From Acidobacteriota bacterium (GTDB lineage Bacteria; Acidobacteriota; Vicinamibacteria; Vicinamibacterales; 2-12-FULL-66-21): a stretch of 35,913 nucleotides of DNA. Location: contig JACCRT010000050.1 of the NCBI GenBank assembly GCA_013813355.1, positions 1 through 35,913 of the forward strand, in the 5' to 3' direction. The translations under genes were made by a program, and so were the position numbers. This document shows positions 26,907 to 35,282 of the stretch, piece by piece. Under the pieces are notes generated by a model. It worked only from the letters and a program-made list of their open reading frames with translations, searched no databases and was not told the DNA's origin. The stretch's first letter is position 1. Each line of letters opens with the position of its first letter.

Positions 26907-27572
26907 TTACCACGCCCGGCGCGGCAGCTCTGACCAACGATCCCGCCCGGCGAAGTCGATTGGCCGGCGGTCGGGATGGCGCTGCTTGAATGCCACATAT
27001 TTCGCACGCAACCTGTCGATCCGGCGGTCCGAGATCCGGATGGCCCTGTGCGGCAGATCCAGCAGCATTCGTTCGACCTTCCAGACGTTTTTTTCAGACA
27101 GCCGCCAGTCATAGTCGTCGAGCAGCCGGAGATCGGCCACCGCGTAGCCCGTGATACGGCCGGAATAGTCCACGTACGGATCCACATAGCTGAGCGCCAG
27201 CGCGCGAGGCGTGGCAAACACCGGTCGGCGGCCGTGCAGCCCGGGATCCCGTGAGCGGCCGATGGATCCCCACCGCCCCCGTGTCCGAAAGATGAAGAGG
27301 ACGTGGTCCAGCTCGTCGATCGATTCGAAACTGAGGACCAGCGGGGGATAGCCGTGCTGCTCGAGGATCACGGCCGCGGCCAGCGCGGCTTCCAGGCAGT
27401 GGGCCGTGCGATGCCGCAGCACGCCCCGGAAACTGCGCAGCTTCGCGCGCTCGGGCGGCGGCTCGGTGTTGTACGGCAGCGCGTTGAGGTAGCGCTGGAC
27501 GGCGCCTGGAGTCGCCAGTCGCCCGATCAGCCGCCGTTCGGCCGCTGTGAATGGCGGCGAGCTGTCAGGCAC
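26907..27572 (-). CDS. Transglutaminase/papain-like fold hypothetical protein
   Basis: RTAHCLEAALAAAVILEQHGYPPLVLSFESIDELDHVLFIFR: Cys in helix followed by DH-containing strand. Confidence 0.55.
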   Translation of the reverse strand: MPDSSPPFTAAERRLIGRLATPGAVQRYLNALPYNTEPPPERAKLRSFRGVLRHRTAHCLEAALAAAVILEQHGYPPLVLSFESIDELDHVLFIFRTRGRWGSIGRSRDPGLHGRRPVFATPRALALSYVDPYVDYSGRITGYAVADLRLLDDYDWRLSEKNVWKVERMLLDLPHRAIRISDRRIDRLRAKYVAFKQRHPDRRPIDFAGRDRWSELPRRAW

Positions 27573-28413
27573 CCGCGGCCCGCATCGCCTGGAGAAGCTC
27601 GGTCGGCGTCCAGTCGTTCCCGCTGAAGATCGTCACAATCCGTCCCTGCGGATCGATGACCGCCGTTCGCAGGTTGTGGATGATCTCCACGTCGTCCGGA
27701 TTGTCGCGGATGGTGGTGACGCCGAACCGCGCCGAGAACGGGTCGAGGTGTTCGCGGTCACCAGTCACGAAACGCCAGCGCGCCGGATCCGCGCCGACGC
27801 GCCTGGCGTGCGCGTCGAGGACGTCAGGCGTGTCGAATTCCGGATCGAAGGAGATCGAGACCAGCTGCGCACGCGCCGCCAGGCGCGGATCCCTCCCGAG
27901 CTCACGCTGAACCACGGCAAAGTGCCGGTCCATCAACGGGCAGAAGGTGGGAATCGGACATCGCGTGTATATGAACGTGACGGCCACCACCCTACCGCGC
28001 CAGTCCGACAGCCGGAGTGGACGGCCGGATTGATCGAGCAGGAGGACGTCGGGCGCTTCGTCGCCGGGCGCCACGATCGGCATCGCGGCTCCCGGGGGTG
28101 GTTCGGGTTCCGTGAGGGCGACATGGCCAATCGCTTCCACGCTCGCAAGGTACGCGTCGGTATCGCTCACCACCAGGGTCGCCCGGACGAGATCTCCCGG
28201 ACGCCGCCCATCGAGCACCCCCGCCTCACGCACCCTGAACGGCATCGTCATCGCGGGCATAAAGCCCTGGATGTCGTCATGGCGAATCGTGAGTTCCTGG
28301 CGATCGGCATTGACGGCCAGCACCTGGCCGCGGAGTTCGTACTGGCGTTCGCTCCTCGAGCAGCCGAGCGCTGAGAGGCACAGTAGAAGGAAGATGGCGA
28401 CCGGCCGGCGCAT
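27565..28413 (-). CDS. Copper-binding (CusF-like) domain fused to SCO1/SenC domain
   Basis: QELTIRHDDIQGFMPAMTMPFRV (CusF-like) then VVAVTFIYTRCPIPTFCPLMDRHF (SCO CPxxxCP-like), SISFDPEFDTPDVL. Confidence 0.88.
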   Translation of the reverse strand: MRRPVAIFLLLCLSALGCSRSERQYELRGQVLAVNADRQELTIRHDDIQGFMPAMTMPFRVREAGVLDGRRPGDLVRATLVVSDTDAYLASVEAIGHVALTEPEPPPGAAMPIVAPGDEAPDVLLLDQSGRPLRLSDWRGRVVAVTFIYTRCPIPTFCPLMDRHFAVVQRELGRDPRLAARAQLVSISFDPEFDTPDVLDAHARRVGADPARWRFVTGDREHLDPFSARFGVTTIRDNPDDVEIIHNLRTAVIDPQGRIVTIFSGNDWTPTELLQAMRAAGA

Positions 28414-28500
28414 GGAACCACTCTAGCTCGGCTAGTCGAGCACGTAAAGACGGTGACGGTCGAGCTGGCCCACGGGCCCGGATGACGGCACGCGTTCTGC

Positions 28501-28656
28501 TATACTCGCCGCCGAAGAGAGAGCTCGCCGGTGCCTGAGCCGATCGCCGTGATCCACACGCAGACAGAAACGCGAGCTTTCCCAGAGGGCGCGACCCGCC
28601 GCGCACGGGTCACCTCCTAAACGGCAACGCGCGCGGGGCCAGGAGCAACAGAGAGC
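28501..28656 (+). promoter_or_regulatory. Candidate structured 5' leader of the RRM gene with extended -10 and 16S-tail-like anti-SD
   Basis: TGCTATACT extended -10 (hexamer 28501-28506); hairpin GACCCG-CCGCGCA-CGGGTC (28593-28611); TCACCTCCT 28610-28618; SD AGGAG 28641-28645; ATG 28657. Confidence 0.5.
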
Positions 28657-29022
28657 ATGGGCAGTAGATTGTACGTCGGCAACCTTCCGTATTCCGCCAC
28701 CGAGGATCAGCTGACCGAGCTGTTCAGCCGTGTCGGGAAGGTCGAAACCGTCCGCGTCATGCGCGACATGGCCACCGGTCGCGCGCGGGGCTTCGCCTTC
28801 GTCGACATGGGGTCCGACGAAGACGCACAGAAGGCGATCAGCGAATTCCACGAGCAACCGATGGATGGCCGGGCGCTGGTGGTCAACGAAGCGCGCCCGA
28901 GGGCAGAAGGAGGCTTCGGCGGTGGCGGCGGCCGGCCGGGCGGCGCCCGTGGGGGTGGTGGCGGCAGGTCCCACGATGACGAGGACTTCGCCGGCGGCAG
29001 GCGCAAGGAACCCCGGTGGTAG
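28657..29022 (+). CDS. RRM-domain glycine-rich RNA-binding protein
   Basis: RLYVGNLPYSATEDQLTELF (RNP2), GRARGFAFVDM (RNP1), Gly/Arg-rich tail. Confidence 0.95.
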   Translation: MGSRLYVGNLPYSATEDQLTELFSRVGKVETVRVMRDMATGRARGFAFVDMGSDEDAQKAISEFHEQPMDGRALVVNEARPRAEGGFGGGGGRPGGARGGGGGRSHDDEDFAGGRRKEPRW

Positions 29023-32597: not shown

Positions 32598-35282
32598 TCA
32601 CCCGGTGTTTCGCATCCCCGCTGCGATACCGTTGACGGTCATCATGAATGCGTGCCCGAGCTGCGGGTCGGGATCATCGCCGTGTTCCCGGAGTCGACGG
32701 AGCAGCTCGATCTGCACGAGGTTGATCGGATCGACGTACGGGTTACGAACATCGATGGATCGGCGCAGCACGGCGTTGTGCGCGAGCAGCCGGTCGCTGC
32801 CGGTCACATCCAGCAGCACCTGGGCGGTCTCAGCCAGCCGGCGGCGCAAATCGACACCCATCGACTGGAGCTCCGCGGGCACGAGCCGCCGATCGTACTC
32901 TTCCGCAATTCGCGCATCGGCTTTGGCGAGCACCATCTCGATCAGGTCCAGCGTCGAACGGAAGACGGGCCACTCCCGGTACATGGTACGAAGCAGGCTT
33001 CGGTCCCCCTCGTGGATGGCGGCCGCCAGCGCCTCGCCGGACCCGAGCCAGGTCGGCAGCAACAGGCGGGTCTGCGTCCAGGCAAAGACCCAGGGGATGG
33101 CTCGCAGGGACTCGACACCGCCGGCGTCTCCTTTCCTGGGACGACGTGCCGGCCGGCTGCCGATCGGAAGCGTCGCCAGTTCGGGCTCCGGCGTGGCGGC
33201 GCGGAAGTACGGCACGAATGCGGGGTGTTCATGGACGATCGCGCGGTAGGTGGCGCGAGCGGTCACAGCCAGCCTGTCCATCGTCTCGCGCCAGGACGAG
33301 GGGAGCGTGACGGGTGGCGTGAGCGTGGCGTCGAGCGCGGCGGTTGTGTAGACCTCGAGCGTGCGGAGCGCGATATCCGGCAGGCCGAACTGGGCCTGAA
33401 TCATCTCGCCCTGCTCCGTCACCCGCAGGCGTCCCTCGACCGAGCCAGGCGGCTGAGACTGGATGGCGAGGTAGGTGGGCCCTCCGCCGCGGCCCACGCT
33501 GCCGCCCCGCCCGTGAAACAGCGTCAGCTCCACCCCTGCCCGGCGGCACACGTCGACCAGCGCTTCCTGAGCGCGATACAGCGCCCAGTTCGCGGAGAGC
33601 CGTCCGCCATCCTTCGCGGAATCCGAATAGCCGATCATCACCTCCTGTGAGTCGCCAATCCGCGCCCGGTACCACGGGATCGACAGCAACGCGCTCATCG
33701 TGTCGGCGGCGGCGCCCAGGTCGTCGAGCTGCTCGAAGAGCGGGACCGTGCGGAGATGACAGCCGGCCAGCTGCTGGAGCAGTTCCACTGCGAGCACGTC
33801 GGAGGGTGCCTGCGCCATGGAGATGACGTACGCGCCGAAGGATTCGGGCGATAGCGAGGCCGCCGTACGGAACGTTTCGATGACGTCGCGGTCCTCAGGA
33901 CCCAACGCATCGGCCTCGGGCCATCGCAACAGGGGCCCCTCGCCGGTGAGGGCCCGGATCAGAAACGCCTGGCGTTCTTCTTCCGGCCAGGACGTGTAGG
34001 CGCCGCCGCCGTGCGGCGTGGTGACGGAATCGAGCACCGCGGCATGCCGTGCCGCGTGCTGCCGCAGGTCGAGTCGAACCAGCGTCAGGCCAAACGCCGC
34101 CGTACGGCGCAGGATGTCCGCGAGCCGGCCGCTTGCGACGACCTGCTGCCCGGTGTCGACGAGAGAGTCGTAGCAGAGCCGCAGGGGTTCGATGAGTTCG
34201 TCGATCGAGAGATACGGCTCGGCCTGGTGCGGGGAGCTCGCGTCGGGGCGAGCCGATGCCGTCGCGTCGGCGGCCAGTTCCCGGCCGAGGATGTCGCGGG
34301 TGACCCGCAGGCGATCGCGCACCTCGCGGAGCACGGCCCGATAGGGTTCCCTGGCCGCGCCGCTTCGCGCCCGCAGGGCGGCTGTCGCGCTCGTGATCGA
34401 CAGCTCGTGACGCAAGGCCTCGATCTCGCGTTCGTAGAGGTCCGCCGCCATCCACCGGGAAATCACGCAGGCGAGGCGGGTCGTCTCCGGAGTGACGTTC
34501 GGGTTGCCGTCCCGATCGCCGCCAATCCACGAGCCGAAACGGATCGGTGCGGCATCGAGCGGCAGCGTCCGTCCGGTGAAGTGCTGGAGCGCGCGATCGA
34601 GCCCGCGAAGGTAGCGTGGCAGCGCGTCCCAGAGCGTCTGCTCGAACACGAGCAGCCCGCCGATGATCTCGTCGCGCGGCGTGGGACGCTCCGGCCGGAT
34701 CTCCTCGCTCTCCCACGCCGTGGTGATTTCGCGCCGGAGGTCCTGCACCACCTCGTCCTGCTCGACGGGCGTGAGGTCCGGCCGGTCCCGGCGCGCGAGA
34801 GCTTCCGCGATGCGCAGGTGCTTCTGGACGAGCGTCCGCCGGACGATCGCGGTGGGATGGGCGGTCAGTACCAGTTCAATCCGCATCGAGGCGACGCTCT
34901 GATAGAGAGCGGCCGGGTGAGTTCCGCGCCGCAGCAGGCGGTCGAACGCCTCCTCGCAGGACGCCGGCTGCGGCCCGGCCGCGGGATTTCGCTGATACTG
35001 GCGGCGACGCCGGATTCGATGGTGCTGCTCGGCGATGTTCGCCAGTGCGAGAAAGTGCGAGAACGCGCGTGCGACCGGAACGGCGTCCGCGACGGGAAGA
35101 TCCGCCAGGTCCTCGGAGAGGGCAGAGAAGTCGTCGGTGCCGGTCCGACCTCGCTTGGATCGCGCCCGCACACGCTCGACCGTATCGAAGAGTGCCTGCC
35201 CGCCGCGCAGCTGCAGCGTTTCGCCGAGCAGATCTCCCAGCAACCGCACATCGTCACGCAGCGGCTGGTGCGGATCGGCCAT
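32598..35282 (-). CDS. ppc: Phosphoenolpyruvate carboxylase
   Basis: VLTAHPTAIVRRTLVQKH, FGSWIGGDRDGNPNVT, MIGYSDSAKDGGRLSANW, FHGRGGSVGRGGGP. Confidence 0.96.
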   Translation of the reverse strand: MADPHQPLRDDVRLLGDLLGETLQLRGGQALFDTVERVRARSKRGRTGTDDFSALSEDLADLPVADAVPVARAFSHFLALANIAEQHHRIRRRRQYQRNPAAGPQPASCEEAFDRLLRRGTHPAALYQSVASMRIELVLTAHPTAIVRRTLVQKHLRIAEALARRDRPDLTPVEQDEVVQDLRREITTAWESEEIRPERPTPRDEIIGGLLVFEQTLWDALPRYLRGLDRALQHFTGRTLPLDAAPIRFGSWIGGDRDGNPNVTPETTRLACVISRWMAADLYEREIEALRHELSITSATAALRARSGAAREPYRAVLREVRDRLRVTRDILGRELAADATASARPDASSPHQAEPYLSIDELIEPLRLCYDSLVDTGQQVVASGRLADILRRTAAFGLTLVRLDLRQHAARHAAVLDSVTTPHGGGAYTSWPEEERQAFLIRALTGEGPLLRWPEADALGPEDRDVIETFRTAASLSPESFGAYVISMAQAPSDVLAVELLQQLAGCHLRTVPLFEQLDDLGAAADTMSALLSIPWYRARIGDSQEVMIGYSDSAKDGGRLSANWALYRAQEALVDVCRRAGVELTLFHGRGGSVGRGGGPTYLAIQSQPPGSVEGRLRVTEQGEMIQAQFGLPDIALRTLEVYTTAALDATLTPPVTLPSSWRETMDRLAVTARATYRAIVHEHPAFVPYFRAATPEPELATLPIGSRPARRPRKGDAGGVESLRAIPWVFAWTQTRLLLPTWLGSGEALAAAIHEGDRSLLRTMYREWPVFRSTLDLIEMVLAKADARIAEEYDRRLVPAELQSMGVDLRRRLAETAQVLLDVTGSDRLLAHNAVLRRSIDVRNPYVDPINLVQIELLRRLREHGDDPDPQLGHAFMMTVNGIAAGMRNTG

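Follow-up and report, generated by a model that had tools for sequence, protein, structure and literature searches.

In Escherichia coli, the leader of rpsO, the gene of the RNA-binding protein S15, forms a pseudoknot beside its ribosome-binding site. The leader described here likewise precedes the gene of an RNA-binding protein and possibly forms a pseudoknot next to the ribosome-binding site. It differs from rpsO in that its pseudoknot is a prediction and in that the DNA studied holds neither an S15-like protein nor an S15-like motif. In Bacillus subtilis, attenuators are in general over-represented upstream of genes for RNA-binding proteins (PMC2965389). Bacterial RRM proteins themselves are poorly understood, and most of what is known about their regulation comes from cyanobacteria and Bacteroides.

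Cyanobacterial rbp genes carry conserved cold-response boxes in their 5' UTRs (PMC9333190). In these genes and at our locus the encoded protein is small, with a single RRM and a glycine-rich tail, the conserved 5' leader is long, and each genome has several paralogues; they belong to different phyla, and the likeness is one of layout. The mRNA of Bacteroides rbpB contains a binding site for RbpB, which was taken as possible autoregulation (PMC11697453). RbpB, an RRM-1 protein, is a bacterial RRM protein with a protein-binding site in its own mRNA; it favours AU-rich RNA, whereas the leader analysed here is GC-rich and contains CGCG motifs.

Here, we analysed the leader of an RRM gene in a 35,913-nt stretch of Acidobacteriota DNA (contig JACCRT010000050.1, hereafter the window) from a genome that is 57% complete. 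An initial annotation had noticed a hairpin followed by an anti-Shine-Dalgarno (anti-SD) stretch in this leader and had proposed a mimic of the 16S rRNA 3' tail. We arrive at a different reading, to which we assign a probability of roughly two in three: CCUCCU is one strand of a hairpin stem within a conserved, cis-regulatory RRM leader of about 145 nt, and its likeness to rRNA is accidental.

Results

The letters and coordinates previously reported for the hairpin, for ACCTCCTAA (28612-28620), for AGGAG, for the ATG at 28657 and for TATACT were all correct (Table 1). The comparison of GGGTCACCTCCTAA with GGATCACCTCCTTT gave 11 of 14 identical positions, as had been claimed. The divergent neighbour upstream of the RRM gene (27565-28413, minus strand) codes for a protein in which a CusF-like domain at the N-terminus precedes an SCO1/SenC domain. 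Downstream of the RRM gene, in the window as in many orthologues, lies a convergent ABC-transporter gene.

Table 1 Features of the RRM gene leader in the window.
Feature	Position	Strand	Remarks
Extended -10 promoter element TGC-TATACT	28498..28506	+	TATACT hexamer at 28501-28506; recurs in orthologues
P1 helix, 5' arm GAGAGCUCGC	28519..28528	+	Just past the presumed transcription start; minimum-free-energy (MFE) prediction
P1 helix, 3' arm GCGAGCUUUC	28572..28581	+	From folding and orthologue register
P2 hairpin lower stem, 5' arm AGGGCG	28586..28591	+	From constrained folding and comparison with L002
P2 hairpin upper stem, 5' arm GACCCG	28593..28598	+	Hairpin of the initial annotation
P2 loop CCGCGCA with first CGCG motif (el1)	28599..28605	+	Motif recurs in orthologues
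P2 hairpin upper stem, 3' arm CGGGUC	28606..28611	+	From constrained folding, orthologue hairpins and L002
P2 lower stem, 3' arm CCUCCU (previously read as anti-SD)	28613..28618	+	Partner 28586-28591
Second CGCG motif (el2), CGCGCGCGG	28628..28636	+	Just 5' of the SD; pairing with the P2 loop possible
Shine-Dalgarno (SD) AGGAG	28641..28645	+	AGGAG-like SD also in orthologues
RRM gene, 121-aa single-RRM protein with glycine-rich C-terminal tail	28657..29022	+	PF00076, E 4.7e-23

Homologous RRM genes were gathered from the family and the order, their upstream regions were oriented and the start codons were placed. On a tree of the RRM domain, the orthologues of the window gene, which come from related soil bacteria, form one clade. 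The nearest named relatives are metagenome-assembled genomes (MAGs) of Acidobacteria, and a more distant RRM match comes from a Luteitalea MAG; as Luteitalea belongs to the Vicinamibacterales within the Acidobacteriota, the single order that harbours the orthologues is very probably Vicinamibacterales. A protein search at class level yielded no further close homologues. Three of the orthologues (L005, L007 and L010, all of one genus) have a leader of about 50 nt instead of the long one, without the twin CGCG motifs.

In the proposed mimicry of 16S helix 45 and its tail, CACCUCCU would pair with the SD of its own gene or bind rRNA-recognising factors and thereby gate translation. An exact TCACCTCCT indeed adjoins the hairpin about 22 nt 5' of the SD. 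This exact motif occurs twice in the window compared to 0.20 expected occurrences (two were reached in 3 of 100 shuffles), with the second copy at 33638-33646. Four stretches agree with the 16S tail at 11 of 14 positions where 1.5 are expected, and four were reached in 7 of 100 shuffles. The resemblance is not clearly in excess of chance and, since the 16S-like pattern was chosen by eye from 36 kb, it is no evidence of function.

Conservation turned out to be the deciding point. Among 138 RRM-gene homologues, CACCTCCT was found upstream of a single one, which is the window itself, and CCTCC within the last 75 nt was present in one of 30 orthologues, again only the window. In the regions upstream of RRM genes, CCTCC shows no enrichment (48 occurrences, 43.9 expected, sd 5.4). 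Homologous leaders accordingly lack CACCTCC, an outcome that the initial annotation had itself named as refuting its proposal. The nearest long-leader relative, L002, has CACGCTTG in place of CACCTCCT, by which the anti-SD is lost and the pairing with the opposite arm is retained. A pairing of AGGAG with CUCCU is possible in principle, and in nested partition-function folding, the only model applied to it, the probability of a pair peaks at about 0.16 at 37 °C, but the value falls to 0.02 at 10 °C, i.e. the predicted gate is weaker at low temperature. Given the absence from every other homologue and the replacement in L002, we discarded the 16S-tail mimic as highly improbable. A literature search found no paper on an mRNA-borne mimic of the 16S tail of this kind. 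Judged by sequence comparison, one hairpin arm resembles the rRNA tail by accident.

The hairpin upstream of the SD fared better. Constrained folding around the loop CGCG suggests a two-part hairpin, P2, with an upper stem (28593-28598/28606-28611) and a lower stem (28586-28591/28613-28618), the latter including CCTCCT. The stems around the loop CGCG vary in sequence among the orthologues, while pairing is retained; the L006 orthologue lacks a good P2. The most informative comparison is the one with L002, whose RRM protein is 84% identical to that of the window (its sequence is identical to L032). Anchored on GGGCGCG and CAC, the arms of L002 are CGGGCGCGGCTGT and TCGGCCACGCTTG, and the position of CCUCCU is taken by CGCUUG, with pairing kept. 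In both sequences 11 of 13 positions pair. Three changes are two-sided (A-U to C-G, A-U to G-C and C-G to G-C), and four further pairs exchange G-C with G-U or C-G with U-G. A shuffled 3' arm equalled the P2 pairing of L002 in 0.5% of trials, and arms slid against each other formed 4-6 pairs. The alignment of the two sequences was anchored by hand on both sides and an alignment of the pair by MAFFT differs, for which reason we rate the compensation in L002 as good, not as final evidence. As L002 has lost the anti-SD but kept the pairing of P2, CCTCCT is most likely a part of the hairpin stem.

Energy calculations gave a more modest picture. Compared to a matched null that repeats the choice of the core, P2 in the clade has a mean z of about -1.0 (SE about 0.2), other RRM leaders having -0.5. 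A first shuffle figure (mean z -1.66) was discarded in favour of this value, because the core had been selected on the real sequence only, which made the figure too generous. Folding of the local region was no better than that of shuffles (z +1.1 and +1.25), the hairpin of the initial annotation is not formed in the minimum-energy fold of this region, and nested folding of the window favours pairing of el1 with el2 over P2. Taken together with the pairing kept in the relatives and the compensatory changes in L002, the existence of P2 is moderately supported.

The extended -10 element and a long leader, both postulated by the initial annotation, recur in the relatives, with a leader length of about 145-150 nt. 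In most orthologues of the window gene, TGCTATACT or TGGTATACT is located about 150 nt 5' of the ATG, and wherever a -10 was found in a long-leader orthologue, it precedes the ATG by about 140-167 nt. TATACT occurs in 31 of 137 RRM upstream regions compared to 0.8 expected. The 5' half of the leader would be closed by the P1 helix, which is predicted in the minimum-energy fold from 10 to 50 °C; its register is found in many orthologues as GAAAGC, GGAAGC or GAGAGC with GCUUUC. The energy support for P1 is modest in relation to shuffles (mean z -0.62, SE 0.19). A premature terminator was not found in the leader of the window.

Two CGCG motifs recur within the long leader. The first is located at about -55 in the hairpin loop and the second at about -25, just 5' of the SD. 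Both motifs (-72 to -42 and -38 to -16) are present in all 26 testable long-leader members; the same pair occurs in 8 of 112 other RRM leaders, in 13% of random windows from the same loci and at 4 of 36 other sites with SD and ATG. CGCGCG was counted 42 times in 23 clade leaders, compared to 11.9 expected, and 16 times in the other RRM leaders (17.3 expected). By its layout, the window belongs to this window-type leader, although it was itself among the sequences that defined the type. The leader layout and both CGCG motifs are hence conserved across the sequences compared, and the anti-SD is not.

Conserved motifs may have other causes than an RNA structure. Downstream of the promoter, the twin CGCG could serve a transcription factor as its operator in the DNA, with incidental RNA structure. 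GCGCGC is palindromic and conserved beyond what pairing alone needs, and the motifs are situated in a divergent intergenic region, with the SCO1-like gene on the other strand. Nevertheless, we regard an operator as unlikely: one CGCG is in the loop of a hairpin with compensatory changes in its stem, the other is inside the ribosome-binding region at a fixed distance from the SD, and the length of the leader is conserved. It is similarly improbable that the leader does nothing more than provide a GC-rich 5' UTR in which the SD is accessible, the motifs having been inherited by descent in a young clade. Such a view would fit the modest energy signals of P1 and P2 and the loss of the long leader in one genus, but the flanks are strongly diverged and yet both CGCGs occur in every long-leader member; moreover, leader length and -10 are maintained across several families of the order.

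Could the two motifs pair with each other? In the window, nested folding strongly predicts about five pairs between el1 and el2 from 10 to 50 °C, and the same pairing emerges as the consensus fold when 15 leaders are aligned automatically. Another automatic alignment, of the divergent leaders, yielded no consensus fold, and the folds of subgroups contain one or two two-sided pairs each. Native el1:el2 pairing was no better than pairing with el2 swapped between species (permutation p = 0.77), and covariation is limited to one exchange of A-U for G-C. A pseudoknot of el1 and el2 was for these two reasons dropped as an established element. An RNA thermometer or cold-shock leader, in which the stem of el1 and el2 would open or refold as the temperature changes, could be considered as well. 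The stem is predicted to be stable and adjoins the SD, and the cyanobacterial rbp genes with their cold-response boxes (PMC9333190) offer a parallel. However, the predicted pairing is nearly constant from 10 to 50 °C, and we consider a thermometer rather doubtful.

RRM paralogues of the order possess a second conserved leader, GGUGG(A/U)..AGCCCGCC..GAGCCGAUCGAG..CUCGCUCC..CCACC. A covariance model of it, R1, was used to scan 297 Acidobacteriota genomes (E ≤ 0.001) and gave nine matches in eight genomes, all nine directly upstream of an RRM gene. One match lies outside the order (G212, E 1.2e-8) and was absent from the model. Leaders of the R1 type are located in L147-L155 (1501-1625 in most), L092 (1163-1283, minus strand) and L090 (261-381, plus strand). 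R1 and the leader of the window are alike in being long conserved leaders of RRM genes in the same order with a helix near the 5' end, whereas the core GAGCCGAUCGAG...CUCGCUCC is missing from the window's leader. We rejected the window leader as a member of R1, since it gave no significant match (best forward score -0.1 bits), and the comparison of the two types did not establish homology. In R1-type leaders, for example L067 and L083, the pyrimidine-rich CUCGCUCC, about 100 nt 5' of the SD, pairs with its own SD region slightly better than with swapped ones (p = 0.016 in a permutation uncorrected for relatedness). A further sub-group of RRM paralogues (L026, L074, L072, L078 and L089) has a strong GGAAGGCCGCC/GGGCGGCCUUCC hairpin at about -190 to -100, soon after the -10 and followed by a short U-containing run, which resembles a premature terminator.

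Rfam gave no match at the gathering threshold for the window, only sub-threshold and off-target matches for 20 loci, and none for R1. The window-type leader is new to the catalogues searched, and no paper on RRM leaders of Acidobacteriota was found in the literature search.

Discussion

From these comparisons, we infer a regulatory role of the leader, a ligand and pairing of the P2 loop with el2. The leader would be arranged in the order extended -10, P1 closing the 5' half, CGCG-loop hairpin, second CGCG, SD and AUG, and would act in cis, affecting how the mRNA of the small glycine-rich RRM protein is translated or how stable it is. The two CGCG motifs might pair, either as a pseudoknot or as an alternative stem beside the ribosome site, or they might jointly serve as a twin site for a ligand, probably the RRM protein itself, resulting in feedback or temperature control. 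Pseudoknot, alternative stem and double protein-binding site are all possible. The RRM gene would be subject to auto- or cold regulation via its leader, and regulation by the RRM protein itself is plausible. A more speculative and rather improbable extension would be that structured leaders of two or more families absent from the catalogues, among them the twin-CGCG type and R1, let RRM proteins of Acidobacteriota control their own synthesis, in the window type via a pseudoknot between the hairpin loop and the flank of the SD.

The case also teaches that a striking anti-SD beside a hairpin can arise by accident from a stem arm. For the RRM proteins of these bacteria, the recurrent leaders of two types are candidate autoregulatory binding sites and would make the RNA preference of the proteins directly testable.
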